A stretch of DNA of 64,000 bases from a virus: positions 19,914-83,913 of IMG/VR virus record IMGVR_UViG_3300019880_000001; one strand, given 5' to 3'. The stretch's first letter is position 1. Every line of letters begins with the position of its first letter. Positions 10,729-35,815 of this stretch are shown here, piece after piece. A model generated the notes under the pieces. That model was not told the DNA's origin. It made no database searches and saw only the letters and a program-made list of their open reading frames with translations. The position numbers were made by a program, and so were the translations under genes.

Positions 10729-10730
10729 GA

Positions 10731-10789: not shown

Positions 10790-10865
10790 GAAGGGCCCTG
10801 AGTAGCCCCTAAGACAACCGCTCGCGTCGGCCCAGGAAACGGCGAGCATCAGGAGAAGAGAAGTC

Positions 10866-12182: not shown

Positions 12183-12199
12183 ACAACGGACCGAGTACG

Positions 12200-12250
12200 A
12201 CGTTATGCGGGCGGACGTGGGGTCTCTCGCGTCCGCCCGTAACGTTTTTA
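12200..12250 (+). terminator. Intrinsic terminator
   Basis: A 10-bp GC stem (CGGGCGGACG / CGTCCGCCCG) extended by ACGTTA/TAACGT past a 2-nt bulge, loop of about a dozen bases, followed directly by TTTTT at 12245-12249. It ends the transcript of the 438-aa virion protein candidate. Confidence 0.85.
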
Positions 12251-12260
12251 GGCCCAAGAA

Positions 12261-12860: not shown

Positions 12861-12865
12861 GTCAC

Positions 12866-13471
12866 ATGCAGCCGCACGACCACCAAATTCGCAATCTTGC
12901 TTTGTACGCTCCGAAGATCGCCTTCGGGATGATGGCCGGCGTCCCCCGCGTGCCGTTCATCGCAGACATTCCGATCCAGTTCTCCTCGTCGACGGTCAAC
13001 GCGCCGCCGGTCGTTCAGAACTTCCAGAACAACCTGACGCAAGACACGGTCATCGAGCGGATTGCGTACAACCTCGGTCAGCCGAACAGCTTCCCCGGGA
13101 GCCCGTTCCAGTCGACGTACTTCAACCAGCTCAAGCAGAGCGGGCAGATCGGCGTCGGCGTGCAAATGGCCGTGTACGGCGGTCCCAAGTACAACGTCAA
13201 CGACACCTTCACCGATCTCGGCACCCTCGCAGACGTGTTCGCGGTGACGTGGCCCAACGGGTGGCCGCTCCAGAAGCAGAGCAACGTGAAGGTGAGCGCA
13301 ATCCTCACGCAGACGCCGGTGAGCGTACCGTTCAACATCACCATGACGTTCCTCGGGTGGCAGTTCCTCTCGAAGGAGCTCGACGATCTTTCAGACGAGG
13401 AAGCGCGCGCGCGGTTGCGCAAGCTCGGCGTCGAAACTCCCGACCTGAAGATTCTGCTGTCCAACGGCTGA
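12866..13471 (+). CDS. Candidate capsid-type (jelly-roll-like) virion protein, 201 aa
   Basis: 201 residues from ATG 12866 with AAGGAAAGGG upstream; a TTG at 12857 overlapping the HNH stop is possible. Strand-rich: IADIPIQFSSSTVN, TVIERIAYNL, GQIGVGVQMAVYGG, NVKVSAILTQTP, FNITMTFLGWQFL, with an acidic helical end. The pattern resembles small jelly-roll virion proteins. Together with the 296-aa neighbour the pair has sizes like the small and large major capsid proteins of viruses with two single-jelly-roll proteins; that comparison is inference. Confidence 0.5.
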   Translation: MQPHDHQIRNLALYAPKIAFGMMAGVPRVPFIADIPIQFSSSTVNAPPVVQNFQNNLTQDTVIERIAYNLGQPNSFPGSPFQSTYFNQLKQSGQIGVGVQMAVYGGPKYNVNDTFTDLGTLADVFAVTWPNGWPLQKQSNVKVSAILTQTPVSVPFNITMTFLGWQFLSKELDDLSDEEARARLRKLGVETPDLKILLSNG

Positions 13472-13472
13472 A

Positions 13473-14363
13473 ATGAACGAGCGCATCGACAACGTGATTC
13501 GATTGCAGGCACGCCCAGACGGCGTGGCGCCATCGATCCGTTCGATCCTCCACAACGGCCGAAACGAGATCGTCACCAACGGCCCGAACTCGGAGTTCGG
13601 GTTCATCGGAAGCGATCCGTACAACACGAACGCCTACACCGGCCTCGTCGTTCCGGCGGTACCCAGTGGGACGATCGGAAACGCGCGCTACCTCTTCGTG
13701 CTCGCGCGTCAGAGTTTCAGCACTGGAGAGCAGAGCTCGGAACACCGCGGCGTGCGCCTCGTCGGAATTCGGCAGTACGCCGAGCTCATCGCGCGTCTTC
13801 CGGCTCGTGTCGCGCCGCTTGCCGCCAGCGGCCCTCCCGCCGGCAGCACCGTCACGTTCCGCAAGGAGATCACGAGCCCGCTCTGGCACCCGCAGGACGG
13901 CAACATCTCCTGGCACGTGATGATCATCAACAAGGTGCAGCGCGATACGCGCAACCCCGCCAACACGGACGGGATCATCTACCAGGACGCGTTATCGCCC
14001 GCGCTCATCTACCAGACTTTGGCGCCGTACACGCCTCCGAACGGCGGACGCCCGTGGGGCACTCCGCTCGGCGCGAGCCTCGGCAACATCCACGAGCTTC
14101 GATACCCCTGGCGCACCGAACGGAGCGAGCGCGTGCTCGACATTCCGATTCCGGTGCCGTGCGACGTCGTGCTCTTCGCGAGCGTTCGTCAAAACGACCC
14201 GACACTCAACCCGGTCTTCACCGAGGCGACTGTTGTCACGAGGCAGTTCGCCGCGTTGTCTCCCGAAGACCAGTTCATCGCCGCGTACCCCGCGTCTGCT
14301 CAATACGGCGCCATCGCCGGCTCGCTCGTGTTCGATCAGAACCTCGGAGCGTGCGTCCCATGA
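13473..14363 (+). CDS. Candidate virion structural protein, 296 aa
   Basis: 296 residues, beginning two bases after the upstream stop. Strand-rich with many Asn/Pro/Gly turns; includes NARYLFVLARQSF, TVTFRKEITSPLWHP and RVLDIPIPVPCDVVLFA, the last resembling the closing strands of a jelly roll. No membrane segment or enzyme motif. Overlaps the following membrane peptide gene by ATGA, linking capsid candidates and membrane proteins in one operon. Confidence 0.5.
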   Translation: MNERIDNVIRLQARPDGVAPSIRSILHNGRNEIVTNGPNSEFGFIGSDPYNTNAYTGLVVPAVPSGTIGNARYLFVLARQSFSTGEQSSEHRGVRLVGIRQYAELIARLPARVAPLAASGPPAGSTVTFRKEITSPLWHPQDGNISWHVMIINKVQRDTRNPANTDGIIYQDALSPALIYQTLAPYTPPNGGRPWGTPLGASLGNIHELRYPWRTERSERVLDIPIPVPCDVVLFASVRQNDPTLNPVFTEATVVTRQFAALSPEDQFIAAYPASAQYGAIAGSLVFDQNLGACVP

Positions 14364-15032: not shown

Positions 15033-15742
15033 CAACGCCGGCGCAAGCGTACGGGCATCCGACTCTCGACGACGTCCCCGTTTCCGGACCGACCGATCCG
15101 GGGATCCTCAAAGCGGACTGCTGGTTCGCTCAACACGTTTTACCGACACCGCAACAGGCCGCGTGCGTCGACTGTAAAGGACCAATTCCAATGTGGGCAA
15201 AAACCTCGGGCGTGGGTGAGCAGATTTCGTTCGGCGGAGCGCGCGCTCGCGGCTTCTCGCTCGCCGCACCAGGCGACCCGGACGCTTGGGTTCAACTCAC
15301 GCCGGCGCAGCAGACGTGGGTCGTGAACTCGATCCGAACGCTCGACTCGAAGATCCGAGAGCAGACGCACACCACGTGCCCTGGCATGCAGACGCCGAGC
15401 ATCACGGGCATGGCGGGGTGTTTTCAGAACTGGTTCAACGGCGCGCACCTCGGGCTGACGAACCGCGCCGGCGCCCCCGTCGTGCTCCGCACCGACGGCG
15501 TCTTCGATCAGGACACGCTCGACGCGCTTCGCACCGTCACTTCGCTCGACGCGAAGAACTACCCCACCCCGTTCCCGGGTACGGAAGCGGCGGGCATCGC
15601 CCCCGCATCCAAGAAGCTTTCCACCGGCGCCATGGTCGGTATCGCCGCTGCTGGCGCGACCGTTCTCGGTGGGATCGCCTACGTCGCCATGCACGGCAAG
15701 AGCAAACGCAAGGGTCGTCGGACTCGAAGGAGCAAGCGGTAA
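15029..15742 (+). CDS. Membrane protein with peptidoglycan-binding-like domain and basic tail
   Basis: 237 residues, ATGA overlap. Contains several Cys (ADCWF, CVDC, TTCPGM, GCFQNW). Residues 88-180 resemble a peptidoglycan-binding fold, ending VLRTDGVFDQDTLDALRTV, like the closing motif of PG_binding_1 domains. A membrane helix (about 198-220) precedes a polybasic tail (KSKRKGRRTRRSKR). Same topology as the 7108 and 15742 proteins: wall-binding part, membrane, basic tail. Confidence 0.65.
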   Translation: MTTPAQAYGHPTLDDVPVSGPTDPGILKADCWFAQHVLPTPQQAACVDCKGPIPMWAKTSGVGEQISFGGARARGFSLAAPGDPDAWVQLTPAQQTWVVNSIRTLDSKIREQTHTTCPGMQTPSITGMAGCFQNWFNGAHLGLTNRAGAPVVLRTDGVFDQDTLDALRTVTSLDAKNYPTPFPGTEAAGIAPASKKLSTGAMVGIAAAGATVLGGIAYVAMHGKSKRKGRRTRRSKR

Positions 15743-17226: not shown

Positions 17227-17475
17227 ATGCGAGTCGTGATCGACAACGCGGCGCTCAGGAGGAACCGTTCCTGTAAGGGCGCCTACACCAACCGGGAATG
17301 GGATCCTGCATTGCAGGCGCTCGTGTTCCCGAATTGGGAAGAGTCGGTCAAAGAGCTGCTGTCGACTCCGAAGGGGCTCGCTCGTCTCGAATGGTACGTC
17401 CGGCACAATCTCGTGCCGATGACGATGTCTGAATTCATCGCGGCGAAAGCCGCACGTGGAGGCTCCAGTGAGTGA
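17227..17475 (+). CDS. Small unknown protein, 82 aa
   Basis: 82 residues. Starts seven bases after the upstream stop. Mixed helix/strand composition with several Trp and Arg, no membrane segment or motif. The downstream gene starts inside its last codons. Function unknown. Confidence 0.65.
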   Translation: MRVVIDNAALRRNRSCKGAYTNREWDPALQALVFPNWEESVKELLSTPKGLARLEWYVRHNLVPMTMSEFIAAKAARGGSSE

Positions 17476-17974
17476 GTTCGTCGGACGTACAGGATCGATG
17501 CGTGTTTACTCGTACCCGGAAACTCGACGCAGCGGCAGCGATCCGCTGACGGCGTTCGCGCGGAACTTCGCGACGGGCACGAAGGGCAGCAATACGGTCG
17601 GGCCTGACGGCCTGGATATCGTGTGGAACGCGATCGACGTCGGAGTCGATCCTGACAACGACGTCCCGATCACTCCAAAAGCCACCGGGCAGTTGCTCAT
17701 CACCGGCGTCATCACGCTCACCAACGGAACCGGCGCGCCGATAGACGCCGTCGTTACGGTGCATCTCGACGGTGTCGCCGCCGGACCGTCTTTCGCTACG
17801 ATGACGATCCCCGCAGGCGCTACGGCCGCCATTCCTTTCATGGCAGAGACCGAAGTCATCTCGCCGCTCAACGAGGAGCACTTGATCCAAGTTTTCGTCG
17901 ACGGCGACGGTTTGACCACCGTATCCGACGGCTCGGTGATCAACGTTCAAGAGGTCGTACTCTCGACCGGTTGA
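17468..17974 (+). CDS. Beta-rich virion-like protein, 168 aa
   Basis: 168 residues from GTG 17468, chosen for the GGAGG a few bases upstream. The N-terminus SEFVGRTGSMRVYSYPETR looks like a degenerate form of the [11 protein letters not shown] tag of later proteins. The rest is an Ig-like or beta-sandwich pattern (QLLITGVITLTNGTG, VVTVHLDGV, ATMTIPAGATA). First gene of the spike block, so probably an exposed virion protein. Confidence 0.65.
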   Translation: MSEFVGRTGSMRVYSYPETRRSGSDPLTAFARNFATGTKGSNTVGPDGLDIVWNAIDVGVDPDNDVPITPKATGQLLITGVITLTNGTGAPIDAVVTVHLDGVAAGPSFATMTIPAGATAAIPFMAETEVISPLNEEHLIQVFVDGDGLTTVSDGSVINVQEVVLSTG

Positions 17975-17985
17975 AGGAGACGCGC

Positions 17986-18168
17986 ATGCCCAAGCTGATT
18001 CACCAGGAGACGATGTGCTGCGGGTACAAGAAGTGCCCGGAGCTCAAGATCTTCGAAGACGGCTCCGTCGAACTCAGCGACAACGACGAGGAGATCGGTT
18101 CGGTCGGAACCCTCAAGCTTCGTCCCGAAGTGATGTCTCGCCTCGTCGAGATCTACTCGAAAATCTGA
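17986..18168 (+). CDS. Small Cys-containing protein, 60 aa
   Basis: 60 residues from ATG 17986 (AAGGAG upstream). Contains MCCGYKKCPELKIFEDGSVE, a short Cys cluster that might bind a metal, followed by an acidic stretch. Sits between spike-like genes; function unknown. Confidence 0.6.
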   Translation: MPKLIHQETMCCGYKKCPELKIFEDGSVELSDNDEEIGSVGTLKLRPEVMSRLVEIYSKI

Positions 18169-18171
18169 ACC

Positions 18172-19347
18172 ATGACCCGCATCATCGGTAGGGGCAGGTA
18201 CGCCACGAGCGTATACCCGAGCAGTCCAAGCGGCGGCTCGGGCGCTGGCGGCGAAGTACTGCCCTTCTCGAATTTGCGCTACCTCGATCCGGCAACGACA
18301 CACGCGGCGCCGCACACGGGATCGGTCAGTAACCCGTGCGTGACGGTCGCCGAGATCGCCGCGCTGACCCCCGGGTTCATGGTGATCCAGGTCGCCGGAA
18401 GCCCAACGGACGACCCGGCGCTGATCCCCGCCGGAACGTTGTGCGGCATCACGGGAATGCCGCAGGTCGGTTTCTTCTTTCCGTCGATGACGCTCGAAGC
18501 GAGCGCGAATGTTTCGATGCGTGACGTGTACTTCGTCAACATCGGCGAGCAAGAGGGCGGCGGAGCGGCGCAGCTCAATGTCGTGCTCGCCCTCGACCCG
18601 TCGGAATCGACCTCGTTCGCGAATCAGATTCGCCAGATAGATCTCCCGAACTCTCAGGTCTCGCTGACTCGTTGCAACGTCTACTCGTCGACTAGCGCGA
18701 CGTTCTTGACGCTCTACCAGTGTCGTATTTCGAATCTCGGTGGAAACCCCGCGCCTGACATCACGATGAACAACGGCGGGTTTTTCTACGCCGAAGGCAC
18801 CGTGTTCAGTTCTTCTGTGCCGTCCACCATCACGCTCGACACGAGCGGAGGACGATTCGTCGAATGCACGTTCACCGGAGCCGTGACGATCGACAATGCG
18901 ACTGGGATCGCGACGTTCGATCAAATTTCGTTGGATAGCCTCAACGCGGCGGGGGGTACTATCACTACTCCCGAGAACCTGGCTCTGTCTCCGGCGTCGT
19001 TGATCGTTCCTATGATCGGAACGCAGACCGTCGCGGCCAGCGCCGTTCTCACGATCGGAGCTAACGCTTCTGCCGTACCTCAGTACGCATCCAAAGCGAC
19101 CGCATTCATCCCGCAGGCCGCCGCCGTCGGAGAGTCATTGGCGATCACGCTCGTCATCGCGGGAGGCGCCGTGATCGGGTCAGTGACCGTAGACGATACG
19201 ACTCCCGCCGGCGCCGTAGACATTCCGCTCATAACGCCGAAAGTTCCGATTCCGTCGGCCGGGGTGCTCCTTGCCGATCTCAACTACACGGCCGGAGGCG
19301 GCCCAACGCCACTTGCCGCAACCGTTGTCCGCGTCGATTTGATTTGA
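18172..19347 (+). CDS. Tag-B spike-like protein, beta-helix type
   Basis: 391 residues. Starts with [16 protein letters not shown], the tag-B motif, then a Gly/Ser hinge (about 17-29). The body is made of repetitive short strands with Asn/Thr/Ser turns and inward-looking hydrophobics (for example VSMRDVYFVNIGEQ, VSLTRCNVYSS), consistent with a right-handed beta-helix as in viral spikes and adhesins. The end (SLAITLVIAGG...VVRVDLI) looks like a separate beta domain. Likely a receptor-binding protein anchored through its N-terminus. Confidence 0.7.
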   Translation: MTRIIGRGRYATSVYPSSPSGGSGAGGEVLPFSNLRYLDPATTHAAPHTGSVSNPCVTVAEIAALTPGFMVIQVAGSPTDDPALIPAGTLCGITGMPQVGFFFPSMTLEASANVSMRDVYFVNIGEQEGGGAAQLNVVLALDPSESTSFANQIRQIDLPNSQVSLTRCNVYSSTSATFLTLYQCRISNLGGNPAPDITMNNGGFFYAEGTVFSSSVPSTITLDTSGGRFVECTFTGAVTIDNATGIATFDQISLDSLNAAGGTITTPENLALSPASLIVPMIGTQTVAASAVLTIGANASAVPQYASKATAFIPQAAAVGESLAITLVIAGGAVIGSVTVDDTTPAGAVDIPLITPKVPIPSAGVLLADLNYTAGGGPTPLAATVVRVDLI

Positions 19348-19360
19348 AAGAGGTATTCCA

Positions 19361-20590
19361 ATGAGCCGAGTCATAGGTCGAGGTCGCTACGCCACCGAAA
19401 CGTACCCGTCAGGCCCCGGAGGCGGAGGCGGCGCCGGCGGCGCGAGCGTTCCGTTCGCTCGGCAGCGTTTCATCGACGGGGATACGGCGCAGACCGGATT
19501 GAACGGATCGGCCGCGGAACCGTACGAGACCATCGAGCAGTTCATGACTGCGCGGGACAACACCATCTCGGCGGCTGATTCTGCGGCGAACTTCGTCGGG
19601 TGGCTCATGCCGGCGCTCGCCGGGTACGTGGAAGACGTTGCATTCCGCGCTCGGTGCTCGACGGAGCTCCGAGCCGATTCCATGTCGGTGCCTGGTACCG
19701 GCGGCGTGACCATCGACGGTGATATTTCGTGGACCAACACGTCAGGTACCGCGGCGGCGCCGGCGGCCATTGCTTCGCTTCACAACATCAACGTGACGGG
19801 CACCATTACGGTGACCGACAACGCCGAGTCTCCCGAATTGCTATTCTCCATCAGCGGAGACGAAGAGCCTGGAGGATCCTCTGCGGTCATAGGCGGGTTC
19901 GATTCCAGCACGACCACGACGTTGGCGTCGATATCGCTCAACAACGCGCAGTGCACCGGCGATCTCACCGCAGGGGTCGCGGCCGACAGCGCTGTGGTGA
20001 TCCTCACAGGCGGATCTATAATTACCGGAGACATCACCGCAAAAGCACTTCAATGCAACAACGCGGTCATCGACGGAGCCGTTACGGTAAACGCGGCTGG
20101 ATTTGCGATTTTCCGCGCTTCTGCTTTCGCAGGGGCATGTGCGCTCACGGCTGCCACCTCATCGTTCGATGGGGACTCCTGGCTTAGCTTCTTGGCAAAC
20201 GGCGGAACTCGTGTTGCAGGAACGACTGTGCTCGTCACAGGAGGCGCCAGTACCGCTCTCGTAGAAGGTGCGGCTCTGACAGGCGCGTCTACGAACGTGT
20301 CTCTGAACGGCACGGGAGCAACGGCTGGTTTCACTGGCGCTAACTCCGGCAACCACTACACGACGTCGAACGGGACCCCGACCACCGTCACACTCAAAAC
20401 CGGCGGCGGAGAGTTGGTGGGCGACACGATGCTCATCACGAAGACGGATCTCGGCGCGAACGTTGTAGCGGTCAAGAACAACGCCGGAGCGCAGATCGCA
20501 TCGATCCCAACGCTCGCCAAAGGGTTCGTGCTCGCACGATTCAATGGCTCCGACTGGGTCTTCGTGTCGGGAGGTTCGATGCTGGCATGA
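19361..20590 (+). CDS. Tag-B spike-like protein, beta-helix type
   Basis: 409 residues. Starts [16 protein letters not shown], then a Gly-rich hinge (GPGGGGGAGGA). Body of repeated short strands (GGVTIDGDISW, TGTITVTDNAE, GAVTVNAAGFAIF) typical of a parallel beta-helix. C-terminal part includes TTVTLKTGGGELVGDTMLI, reminiscent of tail-fibre end domains. Paralogous in plan to the 18172 and 25572 proteins. Probably a receptor-binding spike. Confidence 0.7.
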   Translation: MSRVIGRGRYATETYPSGPGGGGGAGGASVPFARQRFIDGDTAQTGLNGSAAEPYETIEQFMTARDNTISAADSAANFVGWLMPALAGYVEDVAFRARCSTELRADSMSVPGTGGVTIDGDISWTNTSGTAAAPAAIASLHNINVTGTITVTDNAESPELLFSISGDEEPGGSSAVIGGFDSSTTTTLASISLNNAQCTGDLTAGVAADSAVVILTGGSIITGDITAKALQCNNAVIDGAVTVNAAGFAIFRASAFAGACALTAATSSFDGDSWLSFLANGGTRVAGTTVLVTGGASTALVEGAALTGASTNVSLNGTGATAGFTGANSGNHYTTSNGTPTTVTLKTGGGELVGDTMLITKTDLGANVVAVKNNAGAQIASIPTLAKGFVLARFNGSDWVFVSGGSMLA

Positions 20591-20922
20591 GCGGATTCCT
20601 GCTCATCTCAGCGCTCGTCGGCGCAACTCTTCTCGTCGTACGCAGCACCCTCTTTGATCCGATTCGTCGGATTTGGCCCGCGCTCTTGCGATGCTCCCAG
20701 TGTTTCGGCACGTGGGTAGGCATCGCCGCGAGCGCGAGTGGCGTCGTGCCGGTAGGGCACGGGCGGATTCTTGACGCGCTCATCGTCGGAGCGGCGACAA
20801 GCTTCTTGTCGCTGCTAGCCGATGCTGTACTCTTGTATTTGCTCGGCGATCCGAGCGAGGAGCCCGAATCCCATGCGCCGAAAACTGACGACTCTGAAAG
20901 CAAAGATGGGGCACAGCCATAA
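20587..20922 (+). CDS. Small membrane protein with CxxC, DUF1360-like
   Basis: 111 residues, ATGA overlap. Two or three membrane segments with the motif RCSQCFGTWVGIA, resembling small phage DUF1360 membrane proteins that carry C-x2-C next to a Trp/Gly. Acidic soluble C-terminus. Function of the family is unknown. Confidence 0.5.
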   Translation: MSGFLLISALVGATLLVVRSTLFDPIRRIWPALLRCSQCFGTWVGIAASASGVVPVGHGRILDALIVGAATSFLSLLADAVLLYLLGDPSEEPESHAPKTDDSESKDGAQP

Positions 20923-21106
20923 CGGTTGCGCTCGCGCGCTCGCGGACATCTCGCTCTACCGAGAGCACCGAAACAACCACAACGTGCACGCCAACGTCGG
21001 CGGTGCGGTTTCGCCTCACTACGACACTGGTTTTAGCGGATGGTCGAACGCCTCTCGCCCGAGAGACAGCGCCATCTCTTTGCGATCCGTTACGGCACTC
21101 AGCTAG
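20873..21106 (+). CDS. Small His/Asn-rich protein
   Basis: 77 residues from ATG 20873, overlapping the upstream gene by 50 bases; an internal ATG at 20906 would give 66. Third-position GC is high and fits coding. Contains GHSHNGCARAL and EHRNNHNVHANVGG. No known motif. Medium confidence because the overlap is longer than usual here. Confidence 0.5.
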   Translation: MRRKLTTLKAKMGHSHNGCARALADISLYREHRNNHNVHANVGGAVSPHYDTGFSGWSNASRPRDSAISLRSVTALS

Positions 21107-21122
21107 TTCGATCGGAGTAAGC

Positions 21123-21150
21123 CGAAAAATATTCAGTCGGCGATTTTTCG
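21123..21150 (+). repeat. 8-bp AT-rich inverted repeat before the collagen-like gene
   Basis: CGAAAAAT (21123-21130) and ATTTTTCG (21143-21150) form a perfect stem with a 12-nt loop, 18 bases before ATG 21169. The downstream arm supplies five T, so it might act as a weak terminator for the 20873 gene or as an operator. Confidence 0.45.
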
Positions 21151-21168
21151 TCGAATCGAAAGCCTGAA

Positions 21169-22289
<1,121 letters not shown>

Positions 22290-22293
<4 letters not shown>

Positions 22294-23021
22294 GCACCGC
22301 GGGCAACGGAAACAACACCAAGTACCTTCAAGACAACGCGAACCTAGGCACTTTCAACGGCGCGTGCTCGGTGTGTTTTTGGGTATGCCCCTCCGGCAAC
22401 ACATTCGGCCCCGGCACGGACGGGTTCGTCACCGTTCTCGATCTCGGCGTGAACGGCGGCGGCGGCAACTTCGACTGGCAATTCTACTTTGACATTTCTC
22501 CGAACAACCTCACGCTGCACTACACGAACTACACAAGCGGGACGCCGACCGTCGATCAAGTAGTAGGCACACTCAGCGCGACAGTGATGTCCTTCGTCGC
22601 ACTGACACACGACCCGGCTGCCGCCGGTGGCACCACGAAATTGTACCTAGGAACCGGACCAGGATCCGCCTTGTCGTTGGTTGCTACGCTTACCGGCGAT
22701 GTGTGGACCGGCACCATGGGGAACCTCACGCTCTTCAACTGGTTCGGAGACACCGAACCGCTGAACGGCGAAATGACGGGCTGGCGCCAATGGTCCGTAG
22801 TGCTCACGCAGACGGAGCTCGAGAACGAGTACTCCTCGATCAAACCGAAGAGCCGAATATCGAATCTCGTACGGTTCTACCCGTGGCTCAACGAGCCGCA
22901 GGACAACATCGACCAGTCGGGGAGCGGCTTCAACATGACGAAGACGGGCACGCTCGCCACCGCACGCCGTATGCCGTCGGTCCCGTGGGGTTCGCCTCCG
23001 GTCGCGATGGGCTACGGTTAA
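22290..23021 (+). CDS. Concanavalin/LamG-like jelly-roll lectin protein
   Basis: 243 residues; ATGA overlap with the fibre gene. Pattern fits a LamG-like sandwich: [107 protein letters not shown]. Such domains bind carbohydrate. Likely an accessory receptor-binding protein. Converges by 4 bp with the minus-strand glycosyltransferase. Confidence 0.65.
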
Positions 23022-24097
23022 CGCGTTATCCCCGCGTACCAACTCGGACTAGAGATCATGTCGAAATATTGCTCGTACAGCGGGGCCACGTTGCCCATCG
23101 TGTAGATCTGAGCGTTCTCTAGACACCGCTCAGGAGATATTTGATCTACGTGCATCGCGGCGTTCAAGAACTGCTTGAAGCTCCGACATCGAAATCCGGT
23201 GATTCCGTGCGCGACCGTTTCTGGGAACGCACCCCAATCGCTTGTGATGACCGGGGTTCCGGAAAAACCAGCCTCGACAACGACACCGCCGAACGGCTCG
23301 AGGTAGTGTGTTGGCACGAAGAGAGCCTTGGCACCCGCTAGCAGCTCGCGCCGCTTCGCGACGTCTGCGATGCCGGCGTACTCGACGTGATCGTCTTTTG
23401 ACGGTTTCTCACCGGGGGCACCGGCGATGACGAGTTTCGCCCCGAGCTCGCGCGTGACGTCGACGGCGATCTGATACCCCTTTTGGTGCGTCATTCGCCC
23501 TAAAAACAGAAAGTAGTCGCTCTTCTTCGCGCGAAACTCGAAATCGCCGGGGTCGAAGTAGTTGGGGACGACCGCGTCGTACCAAATACCGGTGCGCTGC
23601 GCTTGAAGACCGTACACGTGATGCATCCAAGCGTACGACTCGAAGCACCGTCGTTGCGTAAACACACCCTCGTAGCCCACACCGAACTCGACGGCGGCGG
23701 TACCGTTCAAAGCGTGCGCGATACTCTCTTGCCCGCGTCCCATGATCAAACAGAGAAATTCGTCTGGACGCCCGACGATGCGTTTCCGAGCTCGCCGGAC
23801 GGCCTTGTTATTCCAAAGATTGACGTGATGTCCGCTCAACGGAGCGGCGTGCCAGATCTTCTTCTCGTACCACTCTTGGCCGCCGAAGAGCCTGTCCTGA
23901 TCTTCTACCGAGAACACCTCGACGTGTTCCGTCAGCTCGCCGAGATCGTCCGAGCCCTCGTTACCGTAGTGGATCACTTCGTGGCCACGCTCACTCATCA
24001 TTTTGCAGAAACGCTGCACTTTGCCGGTGTACGCACATAGACCGTACTTCTTGTTCGACACGGTGTGCGCGAGAGCAAAAACGTGCAGCCTGGCCAT
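23018..24097 (-). CDS. GT4-type glycosyltransferase
   Basis: 359 residues; ATG overlaps the upstream stop (TGATG). C-terminal GT-B domain has YFLFLGRMTHQKGYQIAVDV and LVIAGAPGE, then HYLEPFGGVVVEAGFSGTPV with the EPFG...E retaining donor-binding motif and WGAFPETV. N-terminal Rossmann half is more divergent. Transfers a sugar from an activated donor; may decorate virion glycoproteins or the host surface. Paired with a methyltransferase in an antisense two-gene operon placed among spike genes. Confidence 0.8.
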   Translation of the reverse strand: MARLHVFALAHTVSNKKYGLCAYTGKVQRFCKMMSERGHEVIHYGNEGSDDLGELTEHVEVFSVEDQDRLFGGQEWYEKKIWHAAPLSGHHVNLWNNKAVRRARKRIVGRPDEFLCLIMGRGQESIAHALNGTAAVEFGVGYEGVFTQRRCFESYAWMHHVYGLQAQRTGIWYDAVVPNYFDPGDFEFRAKKSDYFLFLGRMTHQKGYQIAVDVTRELGAKLVIAGAPGEKPSKDDHVEYAGIADVAKRRELLAGAKALFVPTHYLEPFGGVVVEAGFSGTPVITSDWGAFPETVAHGITGFRCRSFKQFLNAAMHVDQISPERCLENAQIYTMGNVAPLYEQYFDMISSPSWYAGITR

Positions 24098-24714
24098 CAG
24101 AGAACCCCCCGCACGGCACTGTATGCACGCCCAAAGCACCCGTCATGCGAGAGCACGGTGACGTCGCCCCCGGACCAGTTCTCGTTGCTCCCCTCGTCCA
24201 GCCACTCGTCCAAGCTAGACGCGGTGAGCATATGTGGGTGGCCGTCGTGAGGCGGAAGATCAATCCACTCGAAGATGCGAACTCGTCGCCCGAGCGTCAT
24301 CGCGTTTCGAATGATCAGCTTCGGGTCTTCGACGTGCTGGAGGCAATTGTAGATCCACACCTCATCGAAAGGCTTGTGCCCCCCATCGAGAACGTTCTGG
24401 AAACGCTCGATCACGGTCTCGCCTGGGTCGTGCAGAGCCTCGATACCGGTCATGGCGTACCGCAAGTAGACCCACGCCGGATACTGCAACGGGTCGGTCA
24501 CGACACGCCTCTTGGCCCCTCGAGTCTTCAAGAGCATCGAGGCGGGCCCCGCGCCGATGTCCAAGATGTGAGAGTGCTCCGGTACCACGAAATCCCAGTG
24601 CTGGCGCTTGATCCCCATGAGAGAAGCGTACACGTAGTGCTTGCGCTCCTCGTAGAAGGTGTTGCTGCAATCCCCCCAAAAAGCCGCCTCAAAGTCCTGC
24701 GCCGGGTTTCCCAT
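24097..24714 (-). CDS. Class I SAM-dependent methyltransferase
   Basis: 205 residues. Motif I ILDIGAGPASMLL binds S-adenosylmethionine; VVTDPLQYP fits the acidic second strand; DEVWIYNCLQHVEDPK fits motif IV/post-motif of small-molecule or sugar methyltransferases. Coupled to the glycosyltransferase, so glycan methylation is the best guess. A TATACG -10-like box lies 11 bases upstream of the ATG on the minus strand. Confidence 0.75.
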   Translation of the reverse strand: MGNPAQDFEAAFWGDCSNTFYEERKHYVYASLMGIKRQHWDFVVPEHSHILDIGAGPASMLLKTRGAKRRVVTDPLQYPAWVYLRYAMTGIEALHDPGETVIERFQNVLDGGHKPFDEVWIYNCLQHVEDPKLIIRNAMTLGRRVRIFEWIDLPPHDGHPHMLTASSLDEWLDEGSNENWSGGDVTVLSHDGCFGRAYSAVRGVL

Positions 24715-24790
24715 TGTTTTACGTTCGTATACTCCACGATCGCCGAACGAGTGTCCAGATCAGGTGTCGTGGTACCCTTCCGGACGAGCC

Positions 24791-25345
24791 ATGGCGCGTC
24801 GAATCCCCTGGAAAGCCATTGCGATAGGCGGTGCCGTCGCTGGGGGTGTCAGCGCTATTGTACTTGCCAGCCGCAAAAAGCTTCCCTCGTCTTTGCCGGC
24901 CCGGCGCGTGGCGCTCATCGGAGACTCGTACGCGGTAGGGCTCGGGCCGGAGCTCCAAAAGCTCCTCCCCGACTTCAAATATGAGGGGCACGTTGGGAAC
25001 ACCACTGCGGCGTGGGCTGCGCACAGCGCAAGCTGCGGCACGTGCGGCGACTGGCTCACGACGTTCAAGCCCGACGTCGTGCTCGTGTCTCTCGGAGTCA
25101 ACGACGGCGTCTCGCCGAACCGAAAGAACTACAACGACATCGTGAGCGCGCTGCACGGCATCGGTGCTCGAGTTGTTTGGATCGAACCTCCGGCAGGTGT
25201 CATCATCCCGGCGATACGCGCCGCTATCACCTCGCTCGGCGTGACGACGGTGCCTCCCACTCAAACACCTCTCGCCGGCGACGGACTGCATCCGCAAAGC
25301 TACGGACCGTGGGCTCAAGAAGTCTTCCAGGCGGTGCGCCAATGA
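24791..25345 (+). CDS. Membrane-anchored SGNH hydrolase
   Basis: 184 residues from ATG 24791. N-terminal membrane anchor (residues 8-26) and basic loop, then SGNH blocks: VALIGDSYAVG (block I Ser), VVLVSLGVND (block III), and DGLHPQSYG (block V Asp-x-x-His). The usual Gly of block II is near GHVGNTT. Catalytic Ser/Asp/His all present. Esterase or lipase/acyl-hydrolase on peptidoglycan, glycan or lipid. A TACCCT box lies 12 bases before the ATG. Confidence 0.75.
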   Translation: MARRIPWKAIAIGGAVAGGVSAIVLASRKKLPSSLPARRVALIGDSYAVGLGPELQKLLPDFKYEGHVGNTTAAWAAHSASCGTCGDWLTTFKPDVVLVSLGVNDGVSPNRKNYNDIVSALHGIGARVVWIEPPAGVIIPAIRAAITSLGVTTVPPTQTPLAGDGLHPQSYGPWAQEVFQAVRQ

Positions 25346-25575
25346 TGCTCAACGGACGCCCGACGATCGGGTTCGGAGACGAGCACACCGTCCCGCCGCT
25401 AGAGCTCCGTACGGCCTACACCGTGAAGGGGCTCGGCATCGGCGCCGGGGGACTCATCGGTTACCTCACCTTCGGGCCCTTGGGGATGGTTCTCCTTGGA
25501 GGCGCCGGCTGGTACGTGGGCAACCGCGTCGCCGTCAACGCCGAGAAGAAATTCGTAGAAGGACAACACACATGA
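25342..25575 (+). CDS. Tag-A small membrane protein
   Basis: 77 residues, ATGA overlap. Begins MMLNGRPTIGFGDEHT, the fourth copy of the tag-A motif and the only one away from the left end. Then two Gly-rich hydrophobic segments (residues 30-62) and a short charged end. Shares its layout with the 1572 and 1751 proteins. Confidence 0.7.
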   Translation: MMLNGRPTIGFGDEHTVPPLELRTAYTVKGLGIGAGGLIGYLTFGPLGMVLLGGAGWYVGNRVAVNAEKKFVEGQHT

Positions 25576-27392
25576 GGATCATCGGCAGAGGACGTTACGT
25601 CTACGGAACGTACCCAACGACAAGCGCGTCGGCAACGAGCGGGCCCCCCAGCGGCCCCGCCGGCGGAGACCTGGGGGCTACGTACCCAGACCCAACCGTC
25701 GTGGCGCTCGAGGAAACGAGCACGCCGGCGAGGCTCGCGATCGGCGCAATCCCAGACGGCGAATTGCTCATGCGTTCGGGGCTGGCGGTCATCGGCGCAG
25801 GCGCCGCCATGGGAGCCGCCATCACAGTGCGTCGGATCAGCGACAGCAACCTTGGCGGCACGAAGCTGGTCGACATAGCGACCACCAGCCTACGCGACGG
25901 CACGATCTCGTGGGTCTACAGCGTCGGAGCCCTCTTTCAGCTCGTGAAAGCGCCGAGCGCGGCACTTCTCGCGGCGGTCGACGGGATCACCGTCGTCGCG
26001 TCTACCGCAACCGCAGGATCCGTGTGGGTACGTCTCGAGGCCACGGCAAACCAGCGGTTTGGGGTCGAGCCGCCGCTCTTCATCGATCCTTCCGCCGGCA
26101 GCGACGACAACGACGGACTCCTCGTCGGAAACCCACTCAAGAGCGCCGACGAATGGTCCCGCCGAACCAACGGCGTCACCATGCTCGCGTCTTTCACGGT
26201 CACCTGCGCCGCCGGCGACGTCGGTAGCTTCTTCGGCAAACAATACTTCGACAACCGCAGCACAGCGGTCACGATCAGCATCGTCGGCACGAAGAGCCTC
26301 AGCGCTACCATGACGGTCTCTTCGATCACGCCGGAGAACAGCGCACCCGGAGTACAACAAGAATTCTGGATGGTAAAAACCGGAGGTCCGGTGCTCACCG
26401 GCGCGGAGCGACTTCGGATACTTACGAGTTCTATTCCGGCGAACGTCGGAGCCACAGGATGCGTGCGGGGGTTCGAGGGAAGCGATCCGACGCATCCGTA
26501 TACCTCCACGTGGAGCAACGGCGCGACCTCACTGGCAAACCTCTTCCCCGCTGCGGGCGACACGTTCGCGGTCGAGACACTGCTCACCACGTTCCGCGCG
26601 GACGACATGGACACGCGCAACATCGGCCAAGGTTGCATCCTGTCGTTCATCGACATGGTTCATCCGGCGACCACCAGCGTACCTGGCATCTCCCCAAGCT
26701 CCAACAACGCGCGCGTTACCCCGTCGGGGGACCACCTGTTCATCTCGTGCATCTTCGGCACCACAGGGGGCGGGATCGTTCGTATCGACAACGATCAGCT
26801 CTGGTTCCGCGGATGCGAGTTCAAGTCGCAAGTCCATTTCGTTGGCGGCGGCCCCTCAGGAATCGTGGCCTATCAATGCACGTTCCGTGTAGGCGCGGTC
26901 ATAAATTGTTCGTTCTCTCAAACAGGATGCGTATTCGAAGGTGTCACCTCGACCGCCACTTTCTGGTCCAACACCGGAGACGCCCTGTTCTCGCGCATCA
27001 CAGGCACCGCGTTCGGGGTGGGAGGCGTGTTTGCAACTGTCCTAGGCAGAGTTTGGACGCCGCTCGCCGGAGCTCGCAGCGCGGTGACGATTGGAATCAG
27101 CGTCTCCACCGGCGGTACCCTGAACTCCCAAACGTTCGCGCAGATCAACGATAGTATTTCAGCATCAACGGGCGCCATAGTCATGAACGGGATCGTCGTA
27201 CACGGGTACACCGTCGATCCGAACGCGAATTCTCGCGTGCAGTCGGTCAACACCACGATAGGTGCGCTGATCTACATTCACGACATCGCTGGAGATCCGG
27301 TGAACCCACCCGTGTCGGGGTGCTTCCAATACTCAGTCGCCGGGCAAATGCGTCTGATGAATCCCGCCGGGGTTGTCACACCACTCAACTGA
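25572..27392 (+). CDS. Tag-B large beta-helix spike protein
   Basis: 606 residues, the longest structural candidate. Starts MRIIGRGRYVYGTYP, a slightly diverged tag-B, then a short domain (GGDLGATYPDPTVV, a motif also common at phage fibre N-termini), then FIDPSAGSDDNDGL, typical of pectate-lyase-like repeats, and a long beta-helix with strand repeats to about residue 480. The C-terminal part (NTTIGALIYIHDIA...FQYSVAGQMRL) is a separate beta domain. Possible glycan depolymerase spike. Confidence 0.75.
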   Translation: MRIIGRGRYVYGTYPTTSASATSGPPSGPAGGDLGATYPDPTVVALEETSTPARLAIGAIPDGELLMRSGLAVIGAGAAMGAAITVRRISDSNLGGTKLVDIATTSLRDGTISWVYSVGALFQLVKAPSAALLAAVDGITVVASTATAGSVWVRLEATANQRFGVEPPLFIDPSAGSDDNDGLLVGNPLKSADEWSRRTNGVTMLASFTVTCAAGDVGSFFGKQYFDNRSTAVTISIVGTKSLSATMTVSSITPENSAPGVQQEFWMVKTGGPVLTGAERLRILTSSIPANVGATGCVRGFEGSDPTHPYTSTWSNGATSLANLFPAAGDTFAVETLLTTFRADDMDTRNIGQGCILSFIDMVHPATTSVPGISPSSNNARVTPSGDHLFISCIFGTTGGGIVRIDNDQLWFRGCEFKSQVHFVGGGPSGIVAYQCTFRVGAVINCSFSQTGCVFEGVTSTATFWSNTGDALFSRITGTAFGVGGVFATVLGRVWTPLAGARSAVTIGISVSTGGTLNSQTFAQINDSISASTGAIVMNGIVVHGYTVDPNANSRVQSVNTTIGALIYIHDIAGDPVNPPVSGCFQYSVAGQMRLMNPAGVVTPLN

Positions 27393-27395
27393 AAA

Positions 27396-28100
27396 ATGCA
27401 GATCGAAACCTCACTGCTCGCGCTCCCTGGAATCGGCACCGTCACGCCGACGTTCCTGTGCTCGCTCGTGGGCATGGCCGTGCGCCACGGTTGGGATCCG
27501 AACGGCATCGCGCTCGTCATCAGCGAAGAGAGCCTCTTCAACCCCTCCGCGAAGAACCCCCACAGCTCGGCCAGCGGCCTGATCCAGTTCATCGATTCGA
27601 CGGCAGCGTCCCTCGGGACTACGACCGCCCAGATCCGCGCCATGAGTGCCGAAGAGCAACTCCCGCTCGTGGAACGCTTCTTCCAGACGAGCCTCAACGG
27701 GAAAATCCCCGCTCGCATCGAAGACTATTTTCTCTCGGTGCTCGGGCGCCCCGATCTCATCGGGAAACCAGACGACACGCCGGTCTTCGTCAGAGGTTCG
27801 GGCGGCTACGCCGGCAACCCACAGATCGACATCGGCGGGGACGGCGTCATCACGGTCGGCGACACGCGCGCGTACATGCAGCGAGTGCTCCAACGGGCGA
27901 AAGGCACGGTCGGCACTTACCCCGCGATCTGTTACGAGAACGTCACGGCGCCTTCGACGCGAAGCAACGGCACGCTTGCTGCTTTTGCGCTCGGTACGAT
28001 CATGGCCGCTGTGGGGTACGGCACCTACAAGGTGTTGAGCGCGTTGAGCCCGAGACCAGAATCCACGGCTCTACCGCCGCCGGCTTTCAGGCGCACATGA
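27396..28100 (+). CDS. Lytic transglycosylase-like protein with C-terminal membrane helix
   Basis: 234 residues. HGWDPNGIALVISEESLFNP gives the catalytic Glu context of SLT/lysozyme-like transglycosylases, followed by SASGLIQFIDSTAASLG, matching the GLMQ-type motif II, and VERFFQ. It cleaves the beta-1,4 glycan of peptidoglycan. A membrane helix at about 197-215 anchors it. Expected role is wall penetration at entry. Confidence 0.8.
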   Translation: MQIETSLLALPGIGTVTPTFLCSLVGMAVRHGWDPNGIALVISEESLFNPSAKNPHSSASGLIQFIDSTAASLGTTTAQIRAMSAEEQLPLVERFFQTSLNGKIPARIEDYFLSVLGRPDLIGKPDDTPVFVRGSGGYAGNPQIDIGGDGVITVGDTRAYMQRVLQRAKGTVGTYPAICYENVTAPSTRSNGTLAAFALGTIMAAVGYGTYKVLSALSPRPESTALPPPAFRRT

Positions 28101-28546
28101 CGAACAAGACGCTCCTCTGGCTCTCGGCAGGCGGAGCCGCCGCGGGGGCCGCCATCCTCCTCTGGAAAAGGACGGGAGTGGATGTACCCACAACTCCGTC
28201 CATTCCTGTGGCAGCGCCCGGCGAGGCCACGAAAGTCACGCTCGCGGTACCCGCAGGTTGGCGTCGCGTCACCGGATCCGAAGTGTCCGCGCTCCCCGAG
28301 CTCGCATCGCAAGCGAACTCGCTCATGAACACGCCGGGTTTCACGTCGATGCGGTACGGAACGCTCGCCCCGTTCGTAGCTTCCGATGGCAACACGTACG
28401 CGACGTGGATCGAACAGCACTACCATGAGCCGGGTGGCTCTACGAAGCTGTGGGGGCTACACCATGGGGTGACGGTACTAGCCCAAGCGAGCGCGCCCTC
28501 GGTTCTCGCCGACGAGTGGCCCGGCGTCAGACGTGGAAGCACATGA
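28097..28546 (+). CDS. Membrane-anchored protein, 149 aa
   Basis: 149 residues; ATGA overlap. One N-terminal membrane helix (residues 5-23) with the rest presumably outside. Soluble part includes VTLAVPAGWRRVTGSEVSAL and YATWIEQHYHEPGG. No motif recognised. Lies between two probable wall-degrading enzymes. Confidence 0.65.
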   Translation: MTNKTLLWLSAGGAAAGAAILLWKRTGVDVPTTPSIPVAAPGEATKVTLAVPAGWRRVTGSEVSALPELASQANSLMNTPGFTSMRYGTLAPFVASDGNTYATWIEQHYHEPGGSTKLWGLHHGVTVLAQASAPSVLADEWPGVRRGST

Positions 28547-29127
28547 TCCTCCGCCCCAATATTCTCACCAAGCACACTTCGTTCGAGGTACTGCGCGCCT
28601 ACAGCATCGCGCACGTTCGCGTGTTCACAACGCCCATCACCGGCACGCTCGCCGAGATGCTCACCGCGTGGAGTGCGTTCGAGACCTGGTTTTGGAAACT
28701 CTGTCACGACGACAATCTCACGAACATGCGCGGCACGTGGCGAGGCAACGGTACGACGTTCAAAGCGAGCGAGATCGACGCGCACGGCAAGGAGATCTTC
28801 TTGCCCCCGAGCGCGACGAACGTCTTTCGCGCCTACACGGACTCCCCCGGAGTGCCGGCAATAGTCGCCTCCGCTGAGGACAACATCCGTTTCGTCGGTA
28901 CGGCGAGCAACCCCAGCGTGCGCCCGAATCGTTACCAAGAAGCGTGGGATGCGGCCCAGCGAGGCGACGTCGAAGGCTTCGTGATGGGGCTCGCGGAACC
29001 GAAGCTCCCCGGCGTCGAACACGTGCCCGGCTTCTTCACCGCGAACCCGCGCGTGTACCTAGCGGGGGTGCAGCATTGCCTCGACACGCTCAGGCCCGAC
29101 TTCGATACGTACGAAAGAGCACCGTGA
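28543..29127 (+). CDS. Possible glucosaminidase (GH73/FlgJ-like)
   Basis: 194 residues, ATGA overlap. AWSAFETWFWKL then NLTNMRGTW resembles the catalytic Glu helix and NNxxxIKG segment of GH73 enzymes; FRAYTDSPGVPAIVAS matches their FR.Y.s stretch; GFFTANPRVYLAGV resembles the closing GYATDPxYA motif. If correct it hydrolyses peptidoglycan. The match is partial and by eye. Coupled to a transglycosylase operon, which supports the idea. Confidence 0.45.
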   Translation: MILRPNILTKHTSFEVLRAYSIAHVRVFTTPITGTLAEMLTAWSAFETWFWKLCHDDNLTNMRGTWRGNGTTFKASEIDAHGKEIFLPPSATNVFRAYTDSPGVPAIVASAEDNIRFVGTASNPSVRPNRYQEAWDAAQRGDVEGFVMGLAEPKLPGVEHVPGFFTANPRVYLAGVQHCLDTLRPDFDTYERAP

Positions 29128-29330
29128 TCGCGCGATTGATCTGCTTGCTCCTCGGGCATTCACTCGATGAGCTCGCGGTGCTCGAGGGAGCCCAACCCCC
29201 TATCTACGTGACGCACGGCAGGTGCGCTCGGTGCAAGACGCCCGTCATCACGGTGCGTGATCTTCGCGACGAAAAAGACCAGCAAGCGGACGTCGATACG
29301 GTCGACGAGCGCTCAGACCGGTTGAAGTAG
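29124..29330 (+). CDS. Small protein with one Cys pair
   Basis: 68 residues, GTGA overlap. Hydrophobic start and CARCKTPV in the middle. Only one CxxC, so zinc binding would need a dimer or other ligands (the HG before it may help). Converges with and overlaps the minus-strand spike gene by 18 bases. Confidence 0.55.
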   Translation: MIARLICLLLGHSLDELAVLEGAQPPIYVTHGRCARCKTPVITVRDLRDEKDQQADVDTVDERSDRLK

Positions 29331-29873
29331 GCTCGTGAGCGGCTGAACGAGCCCGGCGCCGCTGAGACGTCTGCACTGTAGGGCGTTCGGCGCCGGAAGA
29401 TCGTTCACCAAGTCGGCTTGGCTGAGGTAGGTCAACCGCACTACCGGAACGGACGGCAGTGCCACAGAGAATACGGTAGCCGCGCTGAAAACCTCAGCGG
29501 CGCCTGCGGGGTTGCTGTTGAAAACACACGAGACCGGCGGTCCGGAGCCGCCGTCAATGTAGTTCCAAGTTGTGCCGCCGTCCAAACTCACTTCGACACG
29601 TATTACGAGATTGATCGAGCCTGCTTGTGAGCTCGCTATCGTGAACACGAGAGCTCCGTCTAGAACATCGTCCGCTTCCCAGTCGGTGAACGTGATGACG
29701 ACGTTTCCGCCCACACCCGGCACCGGTGTGAAGTCGCCCACCGGATCCAAGTTGCCTGAAGCGGTGTAGGCCGTTCCGTACTGCAACAGCAACGGGTCAC
29801 TGCCGCCTGCCGCAGCGGGCTTCTCTGGGTACGTTTCGGTCGCGTACCGGCCTCTGCCCATGAGCCTGCTCAT
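29313..29873 (-). CDS. Tag-B beta-rich spike-like protein, 186 aa
   Basis: 186 residues on the opposite strand to the other tag-B genes. Starts [16 protein letters not shown] with a short Ala/Gly hinge. The body is a single beta-sandwich pattern (GNVVITFTDWEADD, ALVFTIASSQAGSINLVIRV, GTTWNYIDGG). Alone in its transcript. Probably another exposed protein using the same docking site. Confidence 0.7.
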   Translation of the reverse strand: MSRLMGRGRYATETYPEKPAAAGGSDPLLLQYGTAYTASGNLDPVGDFTPVPGVGGNVVITFTDWEADDVLDGALVFTIASSQAGSINLVIRVEVSLDGGTTWNYIDGGSGPPVSCVFNSNPAGAAEVFSAATVFSVALPSVPVVRLTYLSQADLVNDLPAPNALQCRRLSGAGLVQPLTSLLQPV

Positions 29874-33866: not shown

Positions 33867-34070
33867 TCATCGCCGGTCCGTCGCCCCACTTCGGAAGCGT
33901 TGGATGAACCAATCGATCGACCATTGTGGTGGAAGAACCCCATCGTTCACTGCGGCAAGAATGTTCGCAGCGGCTTGTGCCGCGAACGGCGCCCACCCTA
34001 ATGCGATGCACTCCAACTCCGCGCGCTCTTCGGGCGTGATGATGTCGAGCCCGGTACCGCAGGGGATCAT
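33867..34070 (-). CDS. Small helical protein, 67 aa
   Basis: 67 residues; ATGA overlap with the HerA-like ATPase stop, so probably made together with it. Helical (TPEERAELECIALGWAPFAA), three Trp. No motif recognised. Confidence 0.65.
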   Translation of the reverse strand: MIPCGTGLDIITPEERAELECIALGWAPFAAQAAANILAAVNDGVLPPQWSIDWFIQRFRSGATDRR

Positions 34071-35815
34071 CCGAGCTCCTCGGGCAATCGAAGCTCTCCG
34101 CGCCCTTCGACCAGCTCCAGCGTTCGCATTCGAGACAGGTAGGTCGAGAACGTTCCACTGCGATGAGAGATACCCGCCGCTTCGCCGAGTTGTTCGTTCG
34201 TCAGGCTTCTTGGGTAGACTTCGGCGAGCGCCGCCAGCATTCGACTAGCCCCGCCGCCGAGCTCGTGAAGCCAATACCGCAACAACTCGCGGCCTTCCGG
34301 TAGCGGCTCGAAGTTTCCCAGTGCCTCGCGTCCAAGTGCCGTCAGCGAGCGCGTGTCTCCTTGATCGGCGATCCAACCCTCCGAGCGCCCGCGCGAGAGA
34401 TACGTTGAGAAAGTCCCTGAGCGTGACGAGAGCCCTGCTCGAACGCCGAGTTGACGGTTCGTCAGACCCGGCCGTTGAGCGAGAGCGATCATCATACGCC
34501 TCAGGCCGCCGCCAACGGTAGACGCACCGGAGTACGGTTTCGCTGCACTGCCGTTCGTTTTCGTCACGAGGTTCTTTGCGGCTTCGTGTTCCACGCGCGC
34601 AGTGACCGGCGGAGGTTGTGCCTTCGCGAGTTGACTGGAGTTTCTCGGCAACGCCCTACGGGCTTTGGCCTCGGCTGTTTTCACCAGCGCGTTCGCGCCG
34701 GAGATCGCACCGGACAAACTGCTCAACACCATACGGGCCTGGTCGAGCGCCGGCATGATAGCCACGATCGCCGCGACCGTTTCTGCGTCCGTAGTCGGAA
34801 CTTGAATGATCTTCGCGGGACCCGACGGGCCGGGCGATGGCGTCTTCTTCAGTGTTTTTTCGTACTCTACGATCTGTTTGCCCAACTCGATGATCCGCCT
34901 GCGAAGCTCCTTCGGGTCTTCGGCCTTCGCCCGCTCGACGACGTCGGCCATCGCCGCGGTGAGCCCCTTCAAGTCGATCGGCGTCAGCTTCTTTTGCTTG
35001 AATGCTTTCCCGCCGACCTTCGGCGTCGCCGACGTATCGAGCGTCTCGATCGGAAGGATGCGTACGATCTTCGAGATCTTGAGCCACTGCGGGCTCCACA
35101 CATACGGGGCTCCTACCTCGAGCGTCGGGAGGACGTCCGCCAGCTTTCCCTCGAACCCCTTGTCGCTCAACCAGTACTGGAGCGCTTTTCGTTCGTGAGG
35201 ACCGTTCATTTGAAATGCGAACACGCACTCGGCCTGGTTGAGCGCTTTCTTAGAGATCTCCTGAGGCCGCTGCGAGATGAAGCTGATCCCAACACCGTGC
35301 GGGCGCCCCTGCTTCGCGAGCCGTTGAAACTCGTGAAGCATTTGCTCTTCTCCGCGTTGGCAATTCTCTGGAACGAAATCTTGGCACTCCTCGAGCACCA
35401 GATGTACGGCGCCGGGCGCCGCCTTCTTTCGTTGGAAAAAGCGACGAGCGAAAGCCGTCGCGAACCGGGTGCGTTCGGCGTCGAGCATTTGGCTCACGTC
35501 GAGCACTACGCTGATGCCGCGATCGACGATCAAGTTGGCTACGAGCTCGCCAGCGGCGGGCTCTAGCGGAATGTCCCCGTGCAGGCCGCCGAACACTGGG
35601 ATCTTGAATGCCTTCGGACCGAGACGGAGGCCCGCCCATCCACCGGACCCGTCCAAGACCACGACCTGCGCCTTGGCACGCAGCATTTGCTCGACCATGC
35701 GCTTGCACCCGAACGTCTTCCCCGATCCGGTTCTGCCGAGGTACGCGAGCTTTTGCGTGACCGCATCGAGCGGAAGCGCGAGTGTACTGGAGATTCGAAG
35801 CGTGCTTGCTCTCAT
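34067..35815 (-). CDS. HerA/FtsK-superfamily ATPase with two C-terminal winged-helix repeats
   Basis: 582 residues from ATG 35815 (AAGGAG upstream). Walker A GRTGSGKT at 27-34, Walker B VHLVLEE at 137-143, and a HerA-type sensor/arginine region FISQRPQEISKKAL near 180. The middle is helical, and the end has two tandem winged-helix repeats each with SGTFSTYLSR. HerA/DUF87 ATPases pump or translocate DNA; relatives package DNA in tailless membrane viruses, while others act in repair or conjugation. No terminase is present, so it is the best packaging-motor candidate here. It is larger than typical viral packaging ATPases, which weakens the idea. Confidence 0.75.
   Translation of the reverse strand: MRASTLRISSTLALPLDAVTQKLAYLGRTGSGKTFGCKRMVEQMLRAKAQVVVLDGSGGWAGLRLGPKAFKIPVFGGLHGDIPLEPAAGELVANLIVDRGISVVLDVSQMLDAERTRFATAFARRFFQRKKAAPGAVHLVLEECQDFVPENCQRGEEQMLHEFQRLAKQGRPHGVGISFISQRPQEISKKALNQAECVFAFQMNGPHERKALQYWLSDKGFEGKLADVLPTLEVGAPYVWSPQWLKISKIVRILPIETLDTSATPKVGGKAFKQKKLTPIDLKGLTAAMADVVERAKAEDPKELRRRIIELGKQIVEYEKTLKKTPSPGPSGPAKIIQVPTTDAETVAAIVAIMPALDQARMVLSSLSGAISGANALVKTAEAKARRALPRNSSQLAKAQPPPVTARVEHEAAKNLVTKTNGSAAKPYSGASTVGGGLRRMMIALAQRPGLTNRQLGVRAGLSSRSGTFSTYLSRGRSEGWIADQGDTRSLTALGREALGNFEPLPEGRELLRYWLHELGGGASRMLAALAEVYPRSLTNEQLGEAAGISHRSGTFSTYLSRMRTLELVEGRGELRLPEELG

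Follow-up and report, generated by a model that had tools for sequence, protein, structure and literature searches.

Why should several otherwise different spike and fibre proteins of one virus begin with the same dozen residues? The question is raised by a 64,000-nucleotide window comprising positions 19914-83913 of the 83,913-bp IMG/VR virus record IMGVR_UViG_3300019880_000001, in which five predicted proteins carry a common N-terminal peptide, hereafter the tag, in front of dissimilar bodies. An earlier note on this DNA had pointed out the five proteins and read the tag as a plug-in docking peptide that lets alternative receptor-binding proteins occupy one site on the particle. The sequence comparisons described here strongly support a tag that is under protein-level selection and is reused modularly on unrelated bodies across a virus family, and we consider it likely that the tag serves at the N-terminus of alternative fibres as a docking peptide.

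The tag in the window

A six-frame regular-expression search of the window returned exactly five matches to G[RK]x[RK]Y, each at the N-terminus of an open reading frame (ORF), and these are the proteins that had been named, starting at 18172, 19361, 21169 and 25572 and, on the minus strand, at 29873. On the plus strand the tag occupies 18172..18219 of the gene for a 391-amino-acid protein (18172-19347), 19361..19408 of that for a 409-amino-acid protein (19361-20590), whose body family is met again in relatives under other versions of the tag, 21169..21216 at the start of a 374-amino-acid collagen-like fibre (21169-22293) and, in the form MRIIGRGRYVYGTYP, 25572..25616 at the start of a 606-amino-acid protein (25572-27392); on the minus strand it lies at 29826..29873 on a 186-amino-acid protein (29313-29873). 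The five tags share [IVL][IM]GRGRY(A/V)xx(T/V)YP. The prefix proposed earlier, [IL]-[IM], holds overall and had to be widened because V also precedes 'IG' in the protein starting at 19361. The Gly/Ser/Ala hinge said to follow the tag is borne out by composition, the 12 residues after YP consisting to 78% of G, S, A, T or P, compared with 41% in all window proteins.

One more protein of the same cluster, of 168 amino acids (17468-17974, plus strand), begins with MSEFVGRTGSMRVYSYP (17468..17518). Homologue alignment identifies this start, formerly described as a degenerate relative, as a genuine variant of the tag, its orthologues beginning with MGEFRIGRKYAQHTYPD or MSEFVGRTGS.RVYSYPE.

Conservation of the tag in a virus family

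A search with the putative capsid protein of the record (see below) led to 29 related contigs, and searching the whole viral collection for the tag with a degenerate DNA pattern gave 26 stretches, nearly all of them in these capsid-related contigs. A further contig, G030, has orthologous tagged genes and no capsid gene in the sequence examined; the matches in G031-G034 were discarded as chance occurrences in unrelated contigs. The DNA pattern of the tag has 5 matches in the record and none in a reversed control, and over 35 records it has 57 matches, in 22 of them, again with none in the reversed control. From 16 non-redundant related genomes, 48 strict-tag ORFs were obtained; where a genome has several of them (five at most), they stand on different bodies. 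Their consensus is M-[ST]-x-[IV]-[IV]-G-[RK]-G-R-Y-A-[RT]-E-[TVA]-Y-P, in which G1, G3, R4, Y10 and P11 are invariant (48/48), and the tag is N-terminal in 49/49 distinct occurrences if GTG and TTG starts are allowed. Wide occurrence in non-viral proteins, which the earlier note had named as a ground for refuting its reading, was not observed for the E/T-restricted form of the motif, which has 0 matches in ~85,000 prokaryote genomes. A 20-residue tag query found none in phage or plasmid records by tblastn, a search of low sensitivity at this query length.

Likeness of this kind might instead reside in the DNA, the tag being a recombination site, or a trace of recent duplication, that shuffles bodies and is kept alike by gene conversion. 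The bodies are clearly shuffled, as in G007, where a homologous body stands behind a collagen insertion. The nucleotides of the tag point the other way. Pairs of window tags differ in the codons of 2-8 of their 8-12 shared residues, and their 39-nucleotide cores have only 22-29 bases in common, so that the similarity is kept at the protein level, as had been argued from synonymous differences. Across the family the codons are near random: synonymous codon identity between tags of different genomes is 0.43, near the level expected from codon usage alone, and for non-homologous bodies it is slightly raised within a genome (0.457 vs 0.426). This synonymous divergence has already largely refuted a DNA-level feature, and we give that explanation almost no credence.

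Bodies and structure

Once the N-termini are removed, BLAST groups the tagged bodies into about 20 clusters, of which the largest is held together by collagen repeats. The collagen family (Pfam PF01391) is found on 11 of the 46 tagged proteins and tail-fibre PHROGs are matched by 13. In the window, the body of the first tagged protein (18220..19347, plus strand) has no family match, that of the second (19409..20590, plus) belongs to a conserved family present in at least 10 relatives, and the third (21217..22293, plus) consists of a Gly-rich hinge, collagen repeats and a C-terminal head, in accordance with the collagen fibre described before (PF01391). The body of the fourth (25617..27392, plus) has neither a family nor a PDB match, and that of the fifth (29313..29825, minus) has an orthologue that is tagged in G001 too. 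An ice-binding-like domain (PF11999, E 4.6e-45) was observed on one tagged protein of a relative.

A beta-sandwich head was seen by AlphaFold2 for the 17468 protein only. Its body (17558..17974, plus strand) was modelled from an alignment of 15 sequences as a TNF/C1q-like beta jelly-roll head (Foldseek E 2e-07). The mean predicted local distance difference test (pLDDT) score of the protein is 84; most of the body exceeds 90, and residues 1-30, which include the disordered tag, score 45-56. Foldseek matched the model to TNF/C1q-like trimer proteins, the closest solved structure being the C-terminal domain of BclA, with BxpB/ExsFA lower down, and to viral collagen or C1q fibre proteins as well. 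In this model, at least, the tag lies outside the fold; the possibility that it forms part of a different fold in each protein, named earlier as a reason to abandon the docking idea, is not what was seen here.

The bodies also bear on another reading of the Arg-rich tag, as an internal signal for binding capsid or nucleic acid, with the tagged proteins packaged within the particle. The conserved basic residues, two to three in each tag, would suit such a role; bodies made of collagen fibres, TNF/C1q-like heads or an ice-binding domain are typical of surface display, and the conserved Y, E/T and YP are unnecessary for binding nucleic acid. We consider internal packaging very improbable.

Variant tags and concerted change

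Most relatives that have no strict form of the tag carry variants of it, among them GRRGYKSEAYP, TGRKSQEVYP, GRRGRYHGETYP, GRNRTARETYP and AGYRGSRETYP. The most informative genome is G016, in which four different proteins (167, 818, 551 and 464 amino acids), with differing codons, begin with a private version, GxKN[RK]SPxTY, that is absent from 11 other genomes checked. By body similarity the 167- and 818-amino-acid proteins are orthologues of the 17468 and 19361 proteins, and the 464-amino-acid protein is collagen-like; the orthologues of two of the G016 proteins in other genomes bear GRGRY or GR tags. A tree of core proteins places G016 within the GRGRY group with moderate local support (0.75). 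In G018 and G026, RGR[TR] stands on all three of their fibres. A concerted change of the tag on unrelated bodies, as in G016, argues for a common binding partner, and one partner shared by the tags is supported, indirectly, by the private tag of this genome on its four proteins.

The variants are also relevant to a different function, in which the tag would be a processing or covalent-attachment signal read during maturation by a virion protease or a transglutaminase-like enzyme; the window encodes a transglutaminase-like protein (8331-8987) and a RadC/JAB-type protein (4255-4803). Adenovirus protease cleaves at Phi-x-G-x-G sites, to which [IV][IV]G[RK]G of the tag is similar. A transglutaminase-core protein is present in 28/32 loci and a RadC-like JAB protein in 19/29, and the leader of BclA, the nearest functional analogue of the tag, is cleaved beside its docking residues (PMC10470788). 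Against processing, the invariant residues reach as far as YP, well beyond the supposed cleavage point, many variants (GRRGYKSEAYP, TGRKSQEVYP and the G016 start GIKNRSPLTY) lack the second G, and the transglutaminase-like gene is present in deep relatives where the canonical tag was not found. We therefore think processing or covalent attachment unlikely, and return to docking.

Genome context and candidate partners

The tagged genes form a spike cluster together with three small genes on the plus strand, encoding a 60-amino-acid protein (17986..18168), a 111-amino-acid protein with two predicted transmembrane segments (20587..20922) and a conserved 77-amino-acid protein (20873..21106), of which the first two are candidate accessory proteins or partners. 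These two occur in 28/28 crown-group records, in 0/5 deep relatives (G027, G028 and G035-G037) and in 0/3 unrelated controls. In G027, a deep relative lacking both genes, one protein begins with the tag-like GRHGRFEAYP. Four genomes (G015, G017, G018 and G026) were at first taken as untagged because only the surroundings of the capsid gene had been read; their spike clusters lie elsewhere in the genome, and there tags or variants adjoin the 60- and 111-amino-acid marker genes.

A four-protein core (290, 438, 201 and 296 amino acids; 9856-14363) is present in essentially all 32 related loci. Its most conserved member, the 438-amino-acid protein (10866..12182, plus), is the putative major capsid protein, a role deduced from its conservation in this universal core. 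As to a jelly-roll fold, such as the capsid protein of a Varidnaviria-like virus would have, its AlphaFold2 model has a pLDDT of 54; from a model of this quality Foldseek gave no significant match and its PDB matches were set aside as meaningless, and no PDB sequence match was found either. A host search of 85,000 genomes and the annotated phage records contain no relative of this protein, for which reason the virus family appears to be undescribed. The universal 201-amino-acid (12866..13471, plus) and 296-amino-acid (13473..14363, plus) core virion proteins are, beside the co-distributed 60- and 111-amino-acid proteins, candidates for the socket that would receive the tag. The TNF/C1q-like 17468 protein was also considered as a universal socket and rejected, being absent from the tagged genomes G014, G015, G017, G018, G020, G023 and G026.

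Both ends of the record share a direct overlap of ~124 bp (read by eye), which makes a near-complete genome, either circular or terminally redundant, probable. A HerA-type ATPase (34067..35815, minus; PF01935, 29.6 bits vs a cutoff of 23.2; phrog_2666, 'packaging', 1e-20) is the sole packaging-like ATPase of the record and likely, by homology, the DNA packaging motor; no protein of the record matches the terminase phrog_2. A HerA/FtsK-type packaging ATPase, as sought in a Varidnaviria-like tailless double-stranded DNA virus, is present and is not decisive, since a related HerA protein is also encoded by a record with a tailed-phage annotation. The window encodes three membrane-anchored lytic proteins, one with LysM and peptidoglycan-binding domains (15742-17220), an SLT transglycosylase (27396-28100) and an SGNH hydrolase (24791-25345), and its structural region is rich in short proteins with one or two transmembrane segments (hydropathy only). 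Judged from its genes, the particle is apparently tailless and probably contains a membrane.

Other genes include a family A DNA polymerase (polA) fused to a uracil-DNA-glycosylase (UDG) superfamily domain (42657-45287, minus). A tyrosine-type integrase (36486-37556, minus) is encoded too, although no relative of the capsid protein turned up in a prophage among the 85,000 genomes. Glycosyltransferase and methyltransferase-like genes (23018-24714, minus) are inserted within the spike cluster; they were not found near the capsid gene in relatives, and possibly glycosylate the collagen fibre.

Different proteins of the window, mostly predicted to be membrane proteins (25342-25575 on the plus strand; 1751-2467, 1572-1754 and 739-1575 on the minus strand), have a second N-terminal tag in common, NGxPxxGFG[DE] (family form [RN]GRPVxGFGxG). 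About 30 more occur in ~14 relatives, L159, L160 and L161 having as many as 4-5 each, and the rate per residue is 3.6e-4 in the first 25 residues vs 8.5e-6 internally. The putative capsid protein (10866-12182) has a conserved N-terminal arm, RVPFGLGxP, that resembles this second tag.

Proposed mechanism

We propose that the tag is a short linear motif of ~12 residues that a single virion carries on several fibre or head proteins of unrelated structure, followed in each by a flexible Gly/Ser/Pro hinge. Through it the N-termini of these proteins would be held in one type of socket on the particle exterior, probably at a vertex or spike base. The bodies could then be freely swapped, lost or invented while the plug is retained by protein-level selection, and drift of the socket in a lineage would carry every plug of that genome along, as in G016. 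Selection on the protein, modular reuse, a tag outside the fold of one well-modelled protein and, indirectly, a common partner are the parts of the earlier docking proposal that stand; binding of the tag to a virion protein, a socket that is single and common to the fibres, its occupation by alternative proteins and receptor binding by their bodies are what we infer.

Several observations weigh against this mechanism. Strict tags show no general excess of similarity within genomes (0.730 vs 0.734, non-homologous bodies; permutation p 0.62), and the co-variation argument is consequently confined to G016 and to G018 and G026. G004, a 29-kb fragment, has the marker genes and no recognisable tag; no socket was identified among the virion proteins; and the tailless virion is deduced from gene content alone.

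If the docking mechanism is true, a 12-residue peptide mounting many unrelated fibres would explain how the parts for host recognition are exchanged without rebuilding the particle, and would provide a sequence handle for surface proteins in viruses that have no annotated structural genes. The private version of G016 would amount to a natural lock-and-key experiment in which the socket can be searched for by co-variation, and the presence of another tag, on membrane proteins, points to a wider address code used in assembling the virion. More tentatively, and with less confidence than we place in docking itself, these could be a new family of large tailless viruses that sorts its virion proteins by N-terminal address peptides, IGRGRYARETYP directing any fibre to one external socket and NGRPVxGFGxG directing membrane proteins elsewhere, with a lineage able to re-key plugs and lock together, as in G016.

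Comparison with known systems

Short N-terminal attachment peptides have precedents. The adenovirus fibre docks to the penton base by its FNPVYPY tail, and the two different fibres of HAdV-40/41 use the same base (PMC8156859). Like the tag, this tail is a short conserved N-terminal peptide with a Tyr-Pro element at its end, followed by a flexible link and a variable shaft and head, and several fibres of one virus share it, as up to five strict tags per genome do here. Unlike it, the tag has another consensus and stands on up to five or more unrelated bodies per genome, and no penton base was identified here. In the phages K1E, K1-5 and SP6 and in Klebsiella phages, conserved N-terminal peptides of 7 or 11 residues are found on secondary receptor-binding proteins (PMC6872550), so that there, too, otherwise different receptor-binding proteins carry a very short N-terminal attachment peptide. 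The phages of the K1-5/KP32 system, however, are tailed and have an anchor protein with a T4gp10-like domain, whereas the present virus has no phrog_2 terminase; no anchor receptor-binding protein was seen here, where no search aimed at T4gp10 was made.

The exosporium leader of BclA and the F-Anchor dock in the cleft between subunits of ExsF/BxpB trimers (PMC11952670, PMC10470788). BclA resembles the tagged proteins in its succession of N-terminal peptide, collagen and TNF/C1q-like head, and the head of the 17468 protein has BclA as its best PDB match; it differs in belonging to a Bacillus spore rather than to a virus, and in its motif. The exosporium leader family TIGR03720 was not matched in an NCBIfam scan of the 46 tagged proteins, which listed collagen adhesins and an ice-binding family. 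The spike P5 of PRD1/PR772, with its collagen-like stalk, is held at the vertex in the P31 penton via its N-terminus (PMC6750898), by a whole penton domain of ~120 residues as opposed to the 12-residue tag.

The adenovirus tail, the K1-5/SP6/Klebsiella peptides and the BclA leader all work alike, and as precedents they support the reading of plug, hinge and exchangeable body. By analogy the tag would be functionally similar to these three; it belongs to none of them. The kind of device is thus already known; what is new is the peptide, the virus family, the breadth of the bodies and the naturally re-keyed version.

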